Source of the DNA: Candidatus Hebobacteria bacterium
GTDB lineage: Bacteria > Armatimonadota > Hebobacteria > Hebobacterales > Hebobacteraceae
NCBI GenBank assembly: GCA_029821495.1
Contig: JALGTG010000004.1
Span: 1 to 32,682, forward strand
Reading direction: 5' to 3'
DNA: 32,682 bases
Under the pieces are notes generated by a model. The model saw only the letters and a list, made by a program, of their open reading frames with translations. It made no database searches and had not been told where the DNA came from. Below, one piece after another: positions 15,896-25,199 of the stretch. A program made the translations under genes and the position numbers. Numbering within the stretch: position 1 is the stretch's first letter; the number at the start of each line of letters is the position of its first letter.

Positions 15896-16022
15896 AAGCT
15901 GTTTCACAACCTCCATCTGAGGTTATGAAGCAGCAGCACAAGCCGGCAGGCTCCAGCAGGCGCATTTCAGGCCAGCTTCTCTAGCGGACAGCCAGGCCAG
16001 TGAGGGTTATGAAATGCGCTCT
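15892..16022 (+). repeat. 131-bp structured dispersed repeat, copy 1
   Basis: It aligns without gaps to 30313-30443 (121 of 131 identical, same orientation). Hairpin A pairs 15898-15913 with 15919-15934 (16 bp, loop CATCT, one C-A mismatch and one G-T wobble here). Hairpin B's base pairs 15960-15969 (GCGCATTTCA) with 16010-16019 (TGAAATGCGC), perfect 10 bp, closing a 40-nt interior. AGAAGCTG (15894-15901) can also pair with CAGCTTCT (15973-15980), competing with hairpin A. The element fills the whole space between the convergent lpxD and GH38 genes and contributes to both stop codons. It holds no gene. It may be a MITE/REP-like element, a structured RNA, or a bidirectional terminator; the type is unknown. 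Confidence 0.88.
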
Positions 16023-19000
16023 AGGACAGCCGGGGTTCCTGGACATACTGCACTCGTCCGTACCACATCACCTTGGCGACCGCCCACAGCCCCTCGGCGT
16101 GGCCGCGAACCGCGAAGGCGAAGCTGCTCTCCTCCCCAGCGTCCAGGCGGAAGCAGTGCAGGCGCGGGGTAACCGAACTGAGAGCGAAGCTGTCCACGCT
16201 CTCGCCCCACGACTCCACTGGAGTAATGAGGGCGAGCTGACCTTCCACGTAGTCGGGATTAGGGTTCGCGAGTCGAGCCACATAGCCATCGTCCCCGCGG
16301 GCCAACGTTGCCTCCAGAGGCCGGATGTCGCCGATCGGCAGCACATCCTGGAGTTCGCGTTCCCCGTCTCGCACAACGGCGCGGAGGAATTGCGGGGAGG
16401 CGTCGGCCGGCACGATCACCATCACCTCGAAGACGGCCTGGGACGCCGCCGGGATGCGGAACGGTATCTGCCTCGGTATGAGTGTCCATTCGGACGGCGC
16501 GATCACCTCGACCGTGCCTGAGATCTCTCGATCCCGCGAGTCATTGCTCACTCCGAGGGAGAAGCGGGTGTTCTGTCCAAGCGGCAGATCCCCCGCCATC
16601 CATACGGTGACCGGCTGGTTACCGATGGGGGCCGCGCCGACGTTGTGATCCCAGTAGCGGCAGTGGGTGGCTCGGGAGAGCTCCGCGCACGGGCCGAGTT
16701 CCTCCGCGGAGCCGCCTCGCGCGGAAGGTCGCGCTTGCTCCGCGAGCCGCGCCAGGCGAGATCCCAGGGTGACGATCCCACATGCGGGAACATCGAGCAG
16801 CACCTCCGCCGGCCGCCGCCACCCAGGGCGGGTGATGGTGGCATCTGCCGTCCTCTTCTCCAGCAGGTTCGCGAGCCATGCCTCTTGTGGTTCGGCCGCA
16901 AAACGGAGGGTGGCCTGGGTGGGCCTTCCCTCTGCTTCATAGGCACGCAGCACTATGCCCCTTTCGGGATCAGAGCACTGACTGTCGTGGTGCTCCGCCA
17001 GTGGATTCCCGAGTGGCTTGACTGCGGCGATGACAAGGTTGGGGACATCGCTGGAAACGAGGCCGAGCTCCGCGGGCAGCGACCCGGAAGACACAGGCGT
17101 CTGGCACGCGATGAGGGGATTGTTCACTTCGTGGCCGGCGCGCACGACGCCCCCGCGGCGCCAGTCGCCCGGGTGGGACAGGAGGGAGTGCTCGAAGACG
17201 TGCGTCTTGTGTTCGGGCACGAAGAAGTGGCTGAGCTTCCCCTCACCCCACGGCATCGCGTTCCACGGTGCGGTGTGGAAGAGAAGGCTGACGAGGGTGC
17301 CGTCCTGCTCGAGGCTGGCGGCGAGCGAGCCGCGGTTGATCAGGGCGACGCCATGGTCGTCGCAAGGCTCGGCTGCTCCGGAGAGGTCGCATGCCTCCGA
17401 GATCTGCATGCTGTCGGCCTGGATATCTGCCGCGATGGCCTCTGCCAGGTGCGGCATGCCCTTCGGATCGGCGGTGTCGGCCACCAGGACGGGTACGTCC
17501 GGGGATTGCCCCTGGGGATCCGGACGACTCACGAGCACACCGCCCCACGGGCGGTCTGCGAGCGCGTCCGCCAGCTTCGCCGATGCCTCCGGGTGGGCCG
17601 ACAGGACTTTCTGGGAGTACGCGTTGTCGCGTCCGAGGCTGATACGGAAGGCACAGTTTCCGGTGTCAGTCTCGAGGTCGTCCGTTTCCAGCCAGTGCGT
17701 GCATGTGACGCCGCGACTGAGGAGTGCCCTCTCAATTGAGCGAACGACAGCGCGGTGCTTCAGGTCGCGCGGGCTGATGATCGCGCAAGGGGCCAGTGGC
17801 AGGGAACCGGCCTGCCGCTTTCCGGACATGATGTGAAGGGCCGGAGCGGGACCGACATCAACCCAGTTCTGAGCGGCCCCGAGCCCGCAGCCGGAGGGAT
17901 TCCGCCCCTCTAGCGTGCGGAAGTCGAATCGGCCGCGGCTTCTCTTGCGCACCACCGCGGCGAAGCGGTCCTCGAAGGTCGGCGTGCCCCCGCTGATTGC
18001 CAGGGGGAAAGCGAGGGCGAGGAGCTCGTGCTCTCCGCGATACTTGCTGAGCGTGGTGCGCAGGTCAATTCTCGGCAGTCCTTTGTAGAGAGTGATCTCC
18101 TGCACCACGCCGCATCGCTCGGGAAGCTCGGTAGTGACGCGGAGCTGGTCGAACACCGGGCCCCGCGATACGGCGACCGATGCCGGGCGCGCGCTCGACC
18201 GGATCGTCTCGCCAGTGGTGTGCAGCTCCCAGGCCGCCAGCTCGCGGCCGGGCTGCTCTGTGAGAGCGATGAGCTCGTTTGCGGGACCGGCCTGGGGGTG
18301 CAGCAGCTCCTTCTTGGCGCGCTTGTCGTAGATGCTCGTCAGTCCGCCACCGGCGGCCGCGTCCGCGTGAACGGACACATACTCGTTCTCAATGGCCGGT
18401 TCGTCGGATTCTTCCGTCTGCGCCTTGGGCGGCAACTGCTGTGCGGGCCTCAGGTAATAGGTGCGATAGCCCAGCGAGGGCACCTCGGTGGCGAGGAACG
18501 CTATCTCGACCCATGGATCGCCCGTGTTCCCGGCGCGGCCGATCGTCTGGCAAGGCACTCCCTTGCCGGCTTCGTCGGTCAACGTGAATCCGGGAGAGAG
18601 CGCGTCGTCGAGAGCCACGCGAGCTCGGCAGATGTCGCTCCGCGTCCAACTAAGCGAGTTGAAGACGACGAGGGCCGCGCCGCCGGGCCGCGCGCCGCGG
18701 GGTTTCGCGGTGTCAACCATCCGGGCGGTGTAATCGAGCGCTCTGCCCTCGGCTTCGGCCGCCAGGTCGAGCGCCTCGCGGTAGCACGACAGCAGGTCCA
18801 GGTACGGCACGTCGGCGCAGGTGCCCGAGATGGCGTCATGGTGCTGGCAGAAGAGGACCTGGCGCCATGCTTTGTCGAGGGCGAGGTCCGGGTATCGAGC
18901 CCCGACGAGCGCGGCGAAGGTGGCCCACTTCTCTGCGCTGAGAATCCGGTTCTCGGCGAGGCGGTTGGCGATCTTGAGATCCGCCCTCGTGACCAGGGTC

Positions 19001-19809
19001 CCCATGTGATACCAGGCGAAGTCGCGCCCGAGCGCCGGTATGGTGGCGCTTCGTAGCTGGACCTCGGGCCTGACACATTCGAGGTAGTGGCGCGGGGTGC
19101 TGAGGAGGATGACCGGGTCGCGCGCTGTGAGCTCGCGGGAATGCCCGGTGAGCCAAGGAGGAGGGGCCATCATGTCGCCGCCGAGGAGGCGGAGGTCGTG
19201 GCGCAAGCCGAGCTGGGCCTGGTGTTCGAGGCCGTTCGCAACCGTGTCGAGCAGTTCCTCGAAGCTGTCCGGATAGTAGTCTGAGGGCTCGCGCTTCTGG
19301 GGCAGGGCCGTGCCGTCGGGGGAGAGCGCGTAGCAGAGGGGCGGCGCTCCCGCTATGTCCTTGGACCAGACGAGCGACTGAAAGCCGGACTTGGCCGCGA
19401 GCTGGGGAAGCTGAAGACAGTGGCCAAAGACGTTGAGCGGAAGGTAGACGGTAGGCTGAGCGCCCAGCATGGCCTCCTCGAAGAGCCGGCCATACAGCAT
19501 GTTGCGTATGATGGCTTCGCCCTGCAGGCACATCTCTCCAGGGTGATTGTACGAGCCGCCTGTCTCAAGTCGTCCGCTGGCGATGATCTGTTGCACGAAC
19601 TCACGGTGCTGGCTGTAAGCCGCGTAGAACGACCGGAGGCAGTCCGTCTGCGGGAGCAGGAGATGGTAGCCGCCGTCCTCGCGACATGCCTCCAGGTACT
19701 GCTCGATCAGCTTAAAGGCTGTACGGGTGCAGGTCCGCTGGTCCTCGGCCCCCACGGGGCGGTAGTTGAAATAGGGCGCTAGGTGGATGGTAGCGCGTTC
19801 CTCTGCCAT
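16021..19809 (-). CDS. GH38 alpha-mannosidase-like protein, catalytic zinc site apparently lost
   Basis: A 1262-aa protein; ATG 19809 has GGAGG six bases upstream. The fold is recognisable as GH38: LETGG..., GEAIIRNMLYGRLF, FGHCLQLPQLAAKSGF, YHMGTLVTRADLKIANRLAENRIL and QHHDAISGT. Large beta-sandwich domains follow from about 350 to the end. Active family members have zinc ligands equivalent to His90, Asp92, Asp204 (also nucleophile) and His471 of Golgi mannosidase II. By eye, PHSHND becomes PYFNYR (N15, R17), the nucleophile Asp is N126 (LNVFGH), and only H324 (HHDAISGT) remains. It also lacks a signal peptide. It may be a binding or regulatory pseudoenzyme, or may use different chemistry. 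It ends a three-gene operon with two SIS proteins. Confidence 0.85.
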   Translation of the reverse strand: MAEERATIHLAPYFNYRPVGAEDQRTCTRTAFKLIEQYLEACREDGGYHLLLPQTDCLRSFYAAYSQHREFVQQIIASGRLETGGSYNHPGEMCLQGEAIIRNMLYGRLFEEAMLGAQPTVYLPLNVFGHCLQLPQLAAKSGFQSLVWSKDIAGAPPLCYALSPDGTALPQKREPSDYYPDSFEELLDTVANGLEHQAQLGLRHDLRLLGGDMMAPPPWLTGHSRELTARDPVILLSTPRHYLECVRPEVQLRSATIPALGRDFAWYHMGTLVTRADLKIANRLAENRILSAEKWATFAALVGARYPDLALDKAWRQVLFCQHHDAISGTCADVPYLDLLSCYREALDLAAEAEGRALDYTARMVDTAKPRGARPGGAALVVFNSLSWTRSDICRARVALDDALSPGFTLTDEAGKGVPCQTIGRAGNTGDPWVEIAFLATEVPSLGYRTYYLRPAQQLPPKAQTEESDEPAIENEYVSVHADAAAGGGLTSIYDKRAKKELLHPQAGPANELIALTEQPGRELAAWELHTTGETIRSSARPASVAVSRGPVFDQLRVTTELPERCGVVQEITLYKGLPRIDLRTTLSKYRGEHELLALAFPLAISGGTPTFEDRFAAVVRKRSRGRFDFRTLEGRNPSGCGLGAAQNWVDVGPAPALHIMSGKRQAGSLPLAPCAIISPRDLKHRAVVRSIERALLSRGVTCTHWLETDDLETDTGNCAFRISLGRDNAYSQKVLSAHPEASAKLADALADRPWGGVLVSRPDPQGQSPDVPVLVADTADPKGMPHLAEAIAADIQADSMQISEACDLSGAAEPCDDHGVALINRGSLAASLEQDGTLVSLLFHTAPWNAMPWGEGKLSHFFVPEHKTHVFEHSLLSHPGDWRRGGVVRAGHEVNNPLIACQTPVSSGSLPAELGLVSSDVPNLVIAAVKPLGNPLAEHHDSQCSDPERGIVLRAYEAEGRPTQATLRFAAEPQEAWLANLLEKRTADATITRPGWRRPAEVLLDVPACGIVTLGSRLARLAEQARPSARGGSAEELGPCAELSRATHCRYWDHNVGAAPIGNQPVTVWMAGDLPLGQNTRFSLGVSNDSRDREISGTVEVIAPSEWTLIPRQIPFRIPAASQAVFEVMVIVPADASPQFLRAVVRDGERELQDVLPIGDIRPLEATLARGDDGYVARLANPNPDYVEGQLALITPVESWGESVDSFALSSVTPRLHCFRLDAGEESSFAFAVRGHAEGLWAVAKVMWYGRVQYVQEPRLS

Positions 19810-19838: not shown

Positions 19839-20576
19839 TCAGAGAAATCGAAGTCGGTCGCGGTAGCGGGCGAGCACCTCGCGGTTGTGCTCGTCGCCGC
19901 CGGCGATGTTGGCGCTCATGAAGATCGGGGGCTGCTCGTCGCGATCGATTAGGTTCGCCGTGGTCTGGACCACGAGGGCCTGCAGGATGACCGAGCCGAT
20001 GGCGGTGGAGGTAGGGCCGACTCTCTGCCCCAAACCCGGAAGCGATATCGCGGCGTCGCCGGGATCGACGTGATTGTCTATCACAATGTCGGCGACGTCG
20101 TGAAGGCGCTTCCCGCTGGAGTGTCGAGAGGGGTAGCCGTTCGCGTACGCGCGCGAGGTCAGAGCGACCACCGTCAGGCCGCCGTTCTTGGCGGCGAGGG
20201 CCATATCAATGGGCGCGGCGTTGCGGCCGCTGGTGGAGAGGACGATCATCACATCCCCGGCGCGCGCCCCCGACTGCTCGAAGAGCTTCGGCGTGTAGCC
20301 CTCTTTCCGCTCCCACTCTGTGGTCTCGGTCACCGGACGGTGGTCGAGGAGGACTTCGTCGCCGAAGATGGGCTGCACGAGAATCAGGCCGCCGGCTCGG
20401 TAGAAGATGTCCATGCTCAGGGCGGCGCTGTGGCCGCAGCCGAAGACATAGATCATGCCGCCGCGGGCGATCGCGTCGGCCATTGCCTCTGCCGCCTCGG
20501 CCATAGGCTTCTGCTCATCCGACCTGACTTCTTGGAGCTTAGCTGAGAGCGCGTCGAAGTAGCGGTCGATCCACAT
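19839..20576 (-). CDS. SIS-domain sugar-phosphate-binding protein, UPF0309-like (copy 1)
   Basis: A 245-aa protein with one SIS domain. The N-terminal helical segment (YFDALSAKLQEV) leads to IYVFGCGHSAALSMDIFYRAGGL, the phosphosugar loop region, then VMIVLSTSGRNAAPIDMALAAK with the Ser/Thr-rich sugar-phosphate motif, and SRHSSGKRLHDVADIVIDN. It strongly resembles UPF0309 proteins, which are related to GmhA-type isomerases and MurQ/GckR-type binders. It likely binds or isomerises a phosphorylated (amino)sugar in the cytoplasm. AAGGGGA precedes the ATG at 20576. It lies 12 bp after its paralogue and 29 bp before the GH38-like gene. Confidence 0.85.
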   Translation of the reverse strand: MWIDRYFDALSAKLQEVRSDEQKPMAEAAEAMADAIARGGMIYVFGCGHSAALSMDIFYRAGGLILVQPIFGDEVLLDHRPVTETTEWERKEGYTPKLFEQSGARAGDVMIVLSTSGRNAAPIDMALAAKNGGLTVVALTSRAYANGYPSRHSSGKRLHDVADIVIDNHVDPGDAAISLPGLGQRVGPTSTAIGSVILQALVVQTTANLIDRDEQPPIFMSANIAGGDEHNREVLARYRDRLRFL

Positions 20577-20588
20577 GTGCGAGTCCCC

Positions 20589-21338
20589 TTAGACACCCGT
20601 ATCGCGGTAGGCTGCCTCGGCAGACGAGTTGAACTCCTCGCCGTCGGGCAGGTTGATGGAGCGATAGACGTGGGGTTTCAGTCCCCGCGCCAGCATCTGC
20701 GAAACCGCCTCCGATATCACGGCCCAGATAATGTAGCAGAATGCCACACCCGAACTGGGCGCAACTCCCGTATCGAGTCCTTCCACATTCAGCACCGCAT
20801 CGCCCACAACGCCGCAGTTGTCTATGACGACATCAGCGACTTCGAACAGCCGCTCGGCACTGCTGTGTCGGCTCTCCACGGCGCGGCTGTAGGTGGTGTT
20901 TGTGATCGCCACAACGTGGAGGCCCCTGCGCTGGGCCGCGCGGGCCACCTCCACAACCGAGGCGGCCCTCCCTGAGACACTGCTCACCAGGAGCACGTCG
21001 CCGGGGGCCAGGGCGCTGCGCTCCACCGCGAGCGCCGCGAGCTTCTCGTCCTCCTCGCCCCGATGGGCGAGCTGCCGCTCGCCGACCTGTTCGGCCCGCT
21101 TGGGCGCCGGGCGGCTCTCGAGCGAGAGGGAGAACTGCAGGTGGTTCAACATGCAGAGGCCGCCCGCGCGGTGGATGGCCTCCCGGGAGCAGTGTCCAGT
21201 GTCGTAGAAGTGAAGGCCTCCACCGGACTCCGCGGCCTCCGCGATCAGCTCGGCGGCCCGGCCGATCGCGGGGAGTTGAGTAGAGCGAATGTGCTCGAGG
21301 ATCTCGTCGCAGCGCGCGAACCAGCGTTCTGCCGACAT
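20589..21338 (-). CDS. SIS-domain protein, paralogue of its downstream neighbour (copy 2)
   Basis: A 249-aa protein starting at ATG 21338, six bases after AGGGAGG; the frame stays open further upstream without similarity. It shows YDTGHCSREAIHRAGGL, VLLVSSVSGRAASVVEVARAAQ and VESRHSSAERLFEVADVVIDN, matching the same regions of the next gene. The two are therefore old tandem duplicates, now well diverged (GCGHS versus TGHCS at the ligand loop), and may act on related sugars or form a heteromer. This is the first gene of the minus-strand operon; the start is divergent from the toroid gene at 21478. Confidence 0.83.
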   Translation of the reverse strand: MSAERWFARCDEILEHIRSTQLPAIGRAAELIAEAAESGGGLHFYDTGHCSREAIHRAGGLCMLNHLQFSLSLESRPAPKRAEQVGERQLAHRGEEDEKLAALAVERSALAPGDVLLVSSVSGRAASVVEVARAAQRRGLHVVAITNTTYSRAVESRHSSAERLFEVADVVIDNCGVVGDAVLNVEGLDTGVAPSSGVAFCYIIWAVISEAVSQMLARGLKPHVYRSINLPDGEEFNSSAEAAYRDTGV

Positions 21339-21410
21339 TGGCGACCTCCCTAGGACTCGAATGCCCTCGCGGCCCGCCTGCACCGCCAGCGCTATCTTCC
21401 GCCCCGCTCT

Positions 21411-21420
21411 GGAGCGCTCC
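21411..21420. promoter_or_regulatory. Palindrome in the divergent SIS/toroid intergenic region
   Basis: GGAGCGCTCC is a perfect 10-bp palindrome lying between two divergent starts (21338 and 21478). It includes the GAGCGCTC core also seen at 3399-3406. A shared operator is possible, but about one chance occurrence of such a GC-rich 8-mer is expected in a window this size. Confidence 0.25.
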
Positions 21421-21477
21421 TCTGTGCCGAGGGAGCGGCAGGGGCGCCGCGGGGACACGGCGTACTATGTCGGCCGT

Positions 21478-22986
21478 ATGCCTCGGCGGGATGAATACGA
21501 GGCGGCGGCGAGGGCGGTTGCGGGCCACCTGGCCGAACGGCAGCGGCCGGACGGCGGCTTTCCGGGGCCCGACCACTATGGGGTCACAGCCGCGGTATGG
21601 CTCTGGTCGCACTTCGGCGCGGAGTTCGTGGCACAGATGGACCGCGCCTGGGACCGGCTCAAGGGCGACCCGCCGGCTACCCACGGCGAGTTCAACACCT
21701 ACGCGCTGCTCCAGTGTCGGGAGCGTCTGGGCGCCGGCCCGGTGGACGCCCTGGTGCGGCGGCTGCGGTTTGGGGGACGACACTCCGCAAACTGGATGTT
21801 GCTCCGCGCGGTTTGCCGAGCGCTGCCGGGGCCTCGTTTCTCGCCATTGCAGTCGAGCCTGGGAGCGCGCGCGGCACTGATCCGGTATGCTCGCCGGGGG
21901 TTCATCGCAGATAGGCCCGGAGTGCGGTCATTCGCCTACCACGCTTTCTGCGGGGCGCTGCTGGCAGACCTGTGGAAAGAGCGGCGCGCGCGGTGGGCGG
22001 GTGTCGCGGCGGCGCGGGCTGCGCACTTCGCGGCACGGTTTGTCTTGCCGAATGGCGACGGCATGTACGTCGGCCGGGGACAGCAGCAGATCTTCGGGTA
22101 CGGCGCTCTCCTCTACCTGCTGGAAGCCGCTGCGCAGCTCACGGGCGAGGATGTGTTCTCCGAGGCAGCGGACCGGGCCTTCAGTCGTCTTATGCAGTTC
22201 CAGCGCGGGGACGGGTCGTTCCCGCTGGTGCTACGAGAAGGCGAGCCGGCGGAGCCGTGGTCGCCGGATGCGCCCCTGCCTGGATGGTACTCTTACAACC
22301 GCTATGCTGACTATCTGCCATTCCTCGGGTGCTTTCTCCTGAAGGCTGCCCGGCCGAACGCGCCGTCGCTCGGCCAAGTAGCCCCGGCGGGGCCGCACCC
22401 GGAGTTGCGCGTCTGGCGGCAGGCCCGCTACGTCGCGGTGCTCGCCGCCCCGGGCGGCGCCTCCACCAACGACATGGCATTTCCGTACGTCTGCTGCGGG
22501 GGACAGTCGCTCTTCCCATGCTACGGCGCAGAAGGCGACCAGGCGCCCGCAGAGGCAGCGCCGCTTCCGTACGCTACGCTCGCGGCCGGACAGCAGTATG
22601 CGTTCCGCGAGCGGCTGCGGTACCGCTTGACCGATACGGGACTCACTGGCGCGTCGCGCCTCGTGCATCATGTCAGGGACTTCGACTTCGGCCCCGCGGG
22701 CTTCGCGTGCCGGGACCGAATCACGTTTCGCCGCCGGTGCAGCTTCTCTCAGTTCGTGCCCGCGAACTTCCCGCTCAGGGCTCTGCGGCGAGCGGCGGAC
22801 GGGACGTTCGAAACCTGGCACCGCGGTGCCAGGGTGAGTCTCGAACTGCATCCCGACGGGTCCAGCCACCCGGATGTCGGGGTCAGCGCGAGCGGGCCTC
22901 TCGTCGCGCTGAGACATGCGATGGGCCGTGTGGAGGCGCGAGCCGGGGATGTCGTGTCCACCGAGCTGCGAGTGCGGTTCCTGTGA
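21478..22986 (+). CDS. Alpha/alpha-toroid protein with C-terminal beta-sandwich, function unknown
   Basis: A 502-aa cytoplasmic protein without a signal peptide. ATG 21478 is taken as start where similarity-like sequence begins; no clear ribosome site precedes it. The N-terminal two thirds hold helix pairs with AERQRPDGGFPGPDHYG and LMQFQRGDGSFPLVL, motifs seen in prenyltransferase/terpene-cyclase toroids and in polysaccharide-lyase or glycosidase toroids. The last third (about 330-502) is beta-rich (LRYRLTDTGLTGASRLVHHVRDFDFG, ISFRRRCSFSQF-like), resembling the beta-sandwich of heparinase/PL-type proteins. A toroid plus sandwich argues for a carbohydrate enzyme rather than a cyclase. The DxDD motif of hopene cyclases is absent. 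No catalytic residues are assigned. A TACTAT (21463-21468) close before the ATG could serve a nearly leaderless transcript. Confidence 0.7.
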   Translation: MPRRDEYEAAARAVAGHLAERQRPDGGFPGPDHYGVTAAVWLWSHFGAEFVAQMDRAWDRLKGDPPATHGEFNTYALLQCRERLGAGPVDALVRRLRFGGRHSANWMLLRAVCRALPGPRFSPLQSSLGARAALIRYARRGFIADRPGVRSFAYHAFCGALLADLWKERRARWAGVAAARAAHFAARFVLPNGDGMYVGRGQQQIFGYGALLYLLEAAAQLTGEDVFSEAADRAFSRLMQFQRGDGSFPLVLREGEPAEPWSPDAPLPGWYSYNRYADYLPFLGCFLLKAARPNAPSLGQVAPAGPHPELRVWRQARYVAVLAAPGGASTNDMAFPYVCCGGQSLFPCYGAEGDQAPAEAAPLPYATLAAGQQYAFRERLRYRLTDTGLTGASRLVHHVRDFDFGPAGFACRDRITFRRRCSFSQFVPANFPLRALRRAADGTFETWHRGARVSLELHPDGSSHPDVGVSASGPLVALRHAMGRVEARAGDVVSTELRVRFL

Positions 22987-23473: not shown

Positions 23474-24442
23474 TTATCGCCTCCGCGTCGTTCGGGCTTC
23501 CCGGACGAACTCGCGATAGTAGGGGATAACGTCGTCGAGCTGTGCCGCTTGACAGAGGAGAGCGCGGACCCGGCAGGTGGCGGTGGATCGGGGCTTGACG
23601 TCTGCGCCCACGAGTCCCAGGCCCACGGTGCGCTCGGCGCCGTTCAGCCAGATGGAGCTGCACTCCTCCGTGAGCGCCATGTAGGCGAGGGCCCACTCTG
23701 AGTTCTGGCCCCACATAACGACCATCGGGTAGTCGTAGCCTTGCGGCTCGACGGACAGCCCGATGCCGGCCATGCGGAGGCCGTTCCACCGCCCGTCGGC
23801 GATCAGCTCGGCTGCACCCATGTTCCGGGGGTAGAATCTCTGGAGACGCGGCCCCGCCACCGCGTGCACCCATCTCCCACTGGCGTGGACGTACGTGTTC
23901 GACTGCCTCGTAGGCATCAGCGTCTCGACCCCTGCCTCGAAGCCCTTCATGCCCTTGGACAGCGTGAACGCGAAGGTGACATCTACGCCGCCCTCGGGGA
24001 GAAGCTCATAGCGGGCCGTGGCTGCAACGGGCCACTTGGGAGCCTTGTCATACTTGAAGAGGACTGCTTCCTTAGCAACTGAGGCATTGCAGGCAGCCCC
24101 CTCTCGAGGAACCAAGAGCCCCCCGTCGCCGCGGGCGAGGTAGTGACGCAGCGAAAGCACTTCCCTGCACGGGCTGGGCAGGGACTTCCCCTCGAGGCAT
24201 TCGGAGAACTCGATTCCCCTGTCGGGGTCGGCGAGGCGGACGTACCCTCTCAGCCCTCCAGCCTCGAACTCGTAGAGGGGCACTGGTCGGAGCGCGGGCG
24301 GGGCGGGCCGACCCTTGGCGCCGGCGCCCGACGGTCTCGCCGCCTCCTTCGTGGGACTCCGCTTCTTCGCGCGGCCCTTGGCCGGCGCGCGCTTCTTCGC
24401 AGCCTTCTTCGTCTTCTTCCTCGGGGCTTTCTTTGGACTCAT
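23474..24442 (-). CDS. Unknown protein with histone-H1-like Lys/Ala-rich N-terminal tail
   Basis: A 322-aa protein; ATG 24442 lies 10 bp after the ThiF-like gene, so the two are probably co-transcribed. Residues 1-50 are a strongly basic low-complexity tail (SPKKAPRKKTKKAAKKRAP and AKGRAKKRSPTKEAA), like bacterial H1-type or AlgP-type tails that bind DNA or polyanions. The rest is beta-rich (YEFEAGGLRGYVRLADP, VDVTFAFTLSKGMKGFEAGVETL, MVVMWGQNSEWALAY), resembling a galactose-mutarotase-like or carbohydrate-related beta-sandwich; I do not recognise a named family. It has no signal peptide. It is convergent with the DUF123 gene. Confidence 0.72.
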   Translation of the reverse strand: MSPKKAPRKKTKKAAKKRAPAKGRAKKRSPTKEAARPSGAGAKGRPAPPALRPVPLYEFEAGGLRGYVRLADPDRGIEFSECLEGKSLPSPCREVLSLRHYLARGDGGLLVPREGAACNASVAKEAVLFKYDKAPKWPVAATARYELLPEGGVDVTFAFTLSKGMKGFEAGVETLMPTRQSNTYVHASGRWVHAVAGPRLQRFYPRNMGAAELIADGRWNGLRMAGIGLSVEPQGYDYPMVVMWGQNSEWALAYMALTEECSSIWLNGAERTVGLGLVGADVKPRSTATCRVRALLCQAAQLDDVIPYYREFVREARTTRRR

Positions 24443-24452
24443 CCGCCGCAGC

Positions 24453-25199
24453 TCACACGCTGCCGCAGACGGGGCAGTCTGCGCGCCGCTGCACGGGGAA
24501 CTTGTAGAAGTCCATGGCATTGGCGTCGTAGGACAGCATCTTGCCCTTCAGCGTCTCGCCAAAACCAGTCAGCACCTTGATGGCCTCCGCGGCCGCTAGG
24601 CACCCAAGAGCGGCCGACACCGCGCCTAGTACGGGGAACCCATAGGTTTCCCACCACGTCGGCTTCTCCGGCACTAGGCACGCGAGGCAGGGGGTCTCCC
24701 CCGGCACGATCGTAGTGAGGGTGCCCTCCATCCCGTACATGGCGGCTTCGACCATTGGCTTGCGCAGCTGGACGCAGGCCTTGTTGAGGGCATACCGCTC
24801 CTCGAAGCTCGGGGGACAGTCACAGACGATGTCCACTTGCGAGACCCACTCCTCCGCGTTGTCGTCCTTGGCATCGTCCCCCAGCGCGACCACTTCGCAC
24901 TGTGGTTGGAGTCGCTCGAACAGCTCCGCCGCGCACTCGACGCGCGGCTTGCCTACATGGTCGTATCGCATCAGGATCTGACGGTTCAGATTGGACCAGG
25001 TAAGGTCCCCGGGGTGAGCGAGCACCAACCTGCCAACGCCGGCCATCCCAAGGTACAGGGCCACTGGTCCGCCCAGCCCGCCTACGCGGGTGACCAGCGC
25101 CGAGGAGTTCTTCAGCTTGCGCTGCGCATCTTCGCCGAAGCCGGGAATGTCCATCTGTCGCTTGAACATCTCCCGGTCACGATCTGTGAGTTCTGCCAC
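24453..25199 (-). CDS. ThiF/MoeB/HesA-type E1-like adenylyltransferase
   Basis: A 248-aa protein; GTG 25199 is chosen because GGGAGG lies five bases upstream, though the frame opens at 25238. The Rossmann nucleotide site is VGGLGGPVALYLGMAGVG, the NLNRQ motif is present, and paired zinc-type cysteines occur as CLACL and CPVC. Two canonical MoeB positions differ: the DFD strand reads HPG with Asp one residue on (HPGDLTWSNLNRQ), and the DCTDN motif reads DCPPS, losing the essential Asp of MoeB. I believe a subfamily shares this, so it may have its own chemistry. Relatives adenylate the C-terminus of a small ubiquitin-like sulfur carrier; none is found next to it. Confidence 0.88.
   Translation of the reverse strand: MAELTDRDREMFKRQMDIPGFGEDAQRKLKNSSALVTRVGGLGGPVALYLGMAGVGRLVLAHPGDLTWSNLNRQILMRYDHVGKPRVECAAELFERLQPQCEVVALGDDAKDDNAEEWVSQVDIVCDCPPSFEERYALNKACVQLRKPMVEAAMYGMEGTLTTIVPGETPCLACLVPEKPTWWETYGFPVLGAVSAALGCLAAAEAIKVLTGFGETLKGKMLSYDANAMDFYKFPVQRRADCPVCGSV

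Follow-up and report, generated by a model that had tools for sequence, protein, structure and literature searches.

What does a GH38 glycosidase do once most of its metal site has been replaced? The question is raised by a gene in the window, by which we mean the whole analysed stretch of 32,682 nucleotides from Candidatus Hebobacteria bacterium (genome G000 below, an Armatimonadota bin of 3.0 Mb that is 91% complete and has CP070816.1 as a relative). From the window alone, the original prediction had read this gene as a long, intact mannosidase relative that lacks the nucleophile and three of four metal-site residues. We compared the gene with its orthologues, analysed the selection acting on it and asked which function would fit best.

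The gene, its protein and its operon

The GH38-like gene (Table 1) is intact, with no internal stops, and has a GGAGG ribosome-binding site 9 bases 5′ of its ATG. The GH38 framework was borne out by Pfam, which finds GH38N, alpha-mannosidase middle, GH38C and GH38C2 domains and a C-terminal NPCBM_assoc domain, each scoring over its cut-off (GH38N, middle and C-terminal domains: 58.1, 57.2, 59.6 and 23.1 bits versus 25, 31.1, 25 and 22). The best conserved segment between this protein and its orthologue in genome G001 is the C-terminal one (residues 1061–1262, 76% identity). The best NCBIfam match is the E. coli-type mannosylglycerate hydrolase MngB (PRK09819), a cytoplasmic type of GH38, but the score, 102 bits, is below the cut-off of 1138 and our protein is not a member. 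No signal peptide is apparent and strand 1 of the barrel starts at residue 7. As the protein starts straight with this strand, it is probably located in the cytoplasm.

Table 1. Features of the GH38-like gene and of the SIS genes preceding it (positions in the window)
Feature	Position	Strand	Details
GH38-like protein, zinc site and nucleophile lost	16021..19809	-	1262 aa, ATG start, stop within coordinates
Catalytic barrel GH38N, residues 1-260; N15, R17, G20, N126, D212	19030..19809	-	Pfam and alignment
Codons 15-20, formerly His-x-Asp-x-x-Trp, now N-Y-R-P-V-G	19750..19767	-	Alignment
Codon 126, formerly nucleophile/zinc ligand Asp, now Asn (AAC)	19432..19434	-	Alignment
Codons 324-325, His and Asp of HHD, kept	18835..18840	-	Alignment
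NPCBM_assoc (NEW3) domain, residues 1078-1147	16369..16578	-	Pfam
SISb, 245 aa, relative of NagS/SCO4393 (UPF0309, PRK02947)	19839..20576	-	Profile match and residue alignment
SISa, SIS_2 paralogue, 249 aa from ATG at 21338	20589..21338	-	Pfam and residue alignment

The linkage to a pair of SIS genes that had been pointed out in the window proved to be conserved in the family. The genes run head to tail in the order SISa–SISb–GH38, separated by 12 and 29 bases (the listed frame of SISa begins at a GTG further up), and the same order is found in G000, G003, G004, G005 and G007. The contigs of G002 and G006 end earlier. In G001 the C-terminus of SISb lies 5′ of the GH38 gene and is followed by a scaffold gap; a loss of the SIS pair from this genome was ruled out, as the truncation of SISb sits at a run of 100 N. 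The record for G001 is presented as a single chromosome with joins of 100 N in it (L051:12060-12170). The one next to the SIS genes attaches unrelated sequence, namely a sulfatase-like ORF, and this makes the gene order across that join unreliable. A GH38 protein in a SIS operon was seen in this family only. Since G005 and G007, which have a complete active site (see below), share the same operon, the operon is older than the loss of the site. Membership of an operon is no proof of interaction.

SISb is a distant relative of NagS, the GlcNAc-6-phosphate dehydratase SCO4393 of Streptomyces, and keeps its eight key residues (H53, S54, R64, E94, S119, S121, D179 and N228); S91 is Thr in G000. SISa matches H53, R64, D179 and N228 and is without S54 and the S91-x-x-E94 motif. 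R64 and N228 of NagS reach into the partner's site, and NagS homologues of about 30% identity outside Streptomycetaceae are reported to be without NagS activity (PMC12680351). SIS genes in tandem pairs occur widely across Armatimonadota (loci L136–L147). In these pairs, too, the SISb-like proteins keep the NagS catalytic set, and the SISa-like ones are without S54 and S-x-x-E and keep the partner-reaching residues; six of the seven cases tested lie downstream of a BadF/BadG-type kinase gene. The division of residues suggests that tandem SIS proteins would be obligate heteromers, and it is reasonable to take SISa–SISb for a heteromeric enzyme acting on a sugar phosphate.

Active site of the GH38-like protein and of its orthologues

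We aligned the protein with the canonical orthologues of G007 and G005, to which it is 58–59% identical. The alignment of the site is free of gaps, which rules out that a misalignment conceals canonical residues, and the residues called in the window (PYFNYR with N15 and R17, N126, and the kept HHDAISGT with H324) were all correct. The canonical APHFHYDPVW reads APYFNYRPVG (H15N, D17R and W20G) and LPLDVFGH reads LPLNVFGH (D126N), while QHHDAISG is retained with H324 and D325. In a profile alignment of canonical relatives with S. pombe Ams1, positions 15, 17, 20, 126, 324 and 325 correspond to H290, D292, W295, D402, H615 and D616. The zinc ligands of Ams1 are H290, D292, D402 and H615, with D402 as the putative nucleophile and D493 as the putative acid/base (PMC7609781). 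Thus, the protein lacks the His-x-Asp ligands at the end of barrel strand 1 and the nucleophile Asp that doubles as a ligand, and keeps the fourth ligand, the His of HHD; the loss of three of four metal-site residues is thereby confirmed. In addition to what had been predicted, the Trp of the −1 subsite is gone. The acid/base Asp is present (D212) and aligns with Asp in 25 of 25 canonical rows in the MAFFT alignment, which is not shifted at this position, as opposed to the Ams1 profile alignment, which is shifted by one residue. With such a site, the protein very probably cannot act as a zinc-dependent GH38 mannosidase.

The gene is present at the same locus in all eight family genomes examined, in G002 only as a fragment at a contig end, and no orthologue contains a stop. 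The active site is complete in G005 and G007, and the fragment in G002 stops short of it. (DAOVEW010000176.1 (L005), titled Bacillota bacterium, is the same 4352-base contig as the one from G002, an Armatimonadota member, and its label looks wrong.) G000, G001 and G004, a clade of three genera, have all lost the zinc His-x-Asp and the Trp, a form that rests on three incomplete metagenome bins. The original prediction looked to orthologues for conserved non-canonical residues, and this expectation held in part: loss of His-x-Asp and Trp does define a clade, but position 15 is N, Q or R and position 17 is R, R or H in G000, G001 and G004, respectively, and only G20 is identical. Loss of the nucleophile is confined to G000 (one genome, one base change), as its two nearest zinc-less orthologues keep D126. 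D212 is retained in all three; H324 and D325 are kept in G004 and are Tyr and Ser in G001, which has thus lost the fourth ligand. The different replacements across the clade are easier to explain by removal of the site than by the building of a particular new one. The original prediction had left open a changed or an absent hydrolase activity; judging from this variability, absence appears likelier, and a changed activity less likely.

A second group, G003 and G006 (L014 and L016), shows another, independent erosion of the site and evolves faster, with residues 1–260 only 34% identical to the G000 protein. G003 reads H15, G17, S126, G212, H324 and A325 with the Trp deleted; in G006 the N-terminal part is missing at a contig end, and H324 and A325 can be read. 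Outside the family, 24–27 more distant relatives from Armatimonadota and Actinomycetota that cover the site are all canonical (L037 and L040 of G012 were excluded for masked or broken frames). Where their neighbourhoods were examined, the surrounding genes belong to sugar catabolism and encode, for instance, sialidase-like BNR proteins, GFO/IDH/MocA oxidoreductases, a fucosidase, a PfkB kinase and an ABC sugar-binding protein.

Selection, fold and the number of losses

We compared the fate of 48 positions that are strictly invariant in the canonical set. In the clade of G000, G001 and G004, six of seven active-site positions changed, against four of the 41 others (Fisher p 1.1e-4), leaving 37 of the non-catalytic invariants retained; three of seven and none of 41, respectively, were altered in each of the three genomes. 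As silent sites are close to saturated, we used a branch codon model instead of pairwise dN/dS, and its omega values are approximate, although the contrast with 1 is large. For residues 1–562, omega was 0.069 on the zinc-less branches and 0.074 on canonical and connecting branches (p = 0.71). An omega of 1 for the zinc-less branches was rejected with 2dlnL of 706 over codons 1–562, and of 325 for the barrel alone. For residues 240–1262, omega was 0.046 on the G000 and G001 branches, while the tips of G003 and G006 gave 0.139, versus 0.072 for LpxD on the same tips. The three-genus clade, therefore, maintains full constraint, and the G003/G006 clade is somewhat relaxed and still constrained. 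These results agree with the earlier reading of the gene as no decaying pseudogene, and we are highly confident that the GH38-like protein of G000 is functional.

The GH38 fold is predicted to be intact. An AlphaFold2 model of residues 1–1060, built from a shallow alignment of 25 rows, has a pLDDT of 85.9 and a pTM of 0.89, and its best matches among solved folds in Foldseek are GH38 alpha-mannosidases (with a moderate TM-score, 0.66 by query). The model of a canonical orthologue (pLDDT 84.6) likewise finds GH38 alpha-mannosidases as best solved matches. The active site itself was compared by sequence.

We reconstructed the species phylogeny from LpxD, transketolase and genes of the neighbourhood, and rooted it with genomes of five other families. 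(G008 has two LpxD copies, L088 and L090, with one in-frame TAG each.) In this tree G003 and G006 branch first (support 97), followed by a split of G002 with the pair G005 and G007 from G000 with the pair G001 and G004 (support 100). The canonical G005 and G007 fall between the groups with eroded sites, which implies an independent loss in each of these groups. It is implausible that a full site was regained, and the rooted tree rules out a single loss. The GH38 tree alone could not decide the number of losses, as the long G003 branch was unstable (support 35–50).

Possible functions without the zinc site

We consider it probable that the G000 gene encodes a cytoplasmic GH38 pseudoenzyme, kept by selection, with a non-hydrolytic job. 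It would descend from a typical GH38 glycosidase that depended on zinc and came to occupy third place in an operon, behind the genes of two NagS-like SIS proteins. The zinc-binding His-x-Asp and the sugar-subsite Trp were then lost in the lineage of G000, and again in that of G003 and G006. In G000, where the nucleophile has gone as well, retaining zinc-dependent cleavage of alpha-mannosides would be impossible in the usual way, and we infer from the residues that its protein is hydrolytically inactive; G001 and G004 keep both catalytic Asp, and weak metal-independent activity is possible there. Since purifying selection acts in full on the fold and on the remainder of the protein, the job is expected to be a non-hydrolytic one. 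Binding appears the most likely, as the glycan cleft, the acid/base Asp and the carbohydrate-associated C-terminal domain have all been kept. The GH38 protein may serve as a sugar-binding scaffold or a regulatory partner of the SIS enzymes from the same operon; such a role in binding or as a scaffold with the SIS proteins is a tentative suggestion, drawn from the operon context. The sugar sensor or scaffold that the original prediction had tied to the SIS pair is possible on the same terms. A more specific version, in which the GH38 fold would be the sugar-binding regulatory subunit of a heteromeric SISa–SISb enzyme and an arginine would hold the sugar in place of zinc, is unlikely. If it applied, the two losses of catalysis in the family would imply that a regulatory role beside hydrolysis already existed in the common ancestor.

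It is also conceivable, but quite unlikely, that the protein is a glycosidase or transferase of altered chemistry, in which a basic side chain (R17 in G000 and G001; R15/H17 in G004) takes over from zinc in holding the sugar hydroxyls and D212 acts as acid/base on a different substrate. The retention of D212 throughout the clade and of D126 in two of its members would fit, as would the presence of at least one Arg in the former H-x-D pair of every member and the undiminished purifying selection on the barrel. However, a working new site should be conserved, and the replacements vary; the nucleophile is Asn in G000, G001 no longer has H324 and D325, and none of the three retains the Trp. The three arginines are a small number and may be due to chance. 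The same variability of replacements might be expected of a mannosidase that is no longer needed and is drifting before the gene breaks, and the fast divergence of the N-terminal part in G003 and G006 (a branch of 1.5 substitutions per site), with a tip omega twice that of LpxD (0.14 versus 0.07), points the same way. We nevertheless regard relaxed selection as very unlikely: the omega of the zinc-less clade is as low as that of canonical lineages with neutrality strongly rejected, non-catalytic invariants are mostly kept, the reading frames are all open, and even in G003 and G006 omega is far below 1. That an assembly or binning artefact or a misalignment hides the canonical residues is hardly credible. 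It is true that every genome here is a metagenome bin and that the G001 scaffold is joined with runs of N, but the site is missing in three bins of separate genera, several of the replacements require substitutions at two bases (D17 to R, codon GAY to CGC) and the region aligns without gaps. This explanation is refuted for the site as a whole, the single-base D126N being the one weaker point.

The pseudoenzyme that we favour shares with GH38 alpha-mannosidases (E. faecalis 5kbp/3lvt, S. pyogenes 2wyh, S. pombe Ams1 6lz1 and Golgi mannosidase II) all four GH38 Pfam domains, the best fold matches, the acid/base Asp, HHD and the general framework. It differs from them in lacking the His and Asp zinc ligands, the nucleophile Asp and the −1 subsite Trp, and in carrying the extra C-terminal NPCBM_assoc domain. 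Non-catalytic relatives of glycosidases whose fold was kept by selection after loss of catalysis are known from other fold families, namely chitinase-like lectins (GH18) and klothos (GH1). The case of G000 differs from these in that a metal site was lost, in a bacterium and in an operon with sugar-phosphate SIS proteins. A limited search of the open-access literature found no description of a GH38 pseudoenzyme. Automatic annotation of these genes as alpha-mannosidases would be wrong. One syntenic locus offers a series from the complete site, through loss of zinc with the nucleophile kept, to loss of both, along with erosion in a second lineage, and permits testing which function of a large glycosidase persists once catalysis is gone. 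Also conserved at this locus in the family, at 55–70% identity, are two proteins without Pfam or NCBIfam matches, encoded at 21289–22986 on the plus strand and 23474–24520 on the minus strand.
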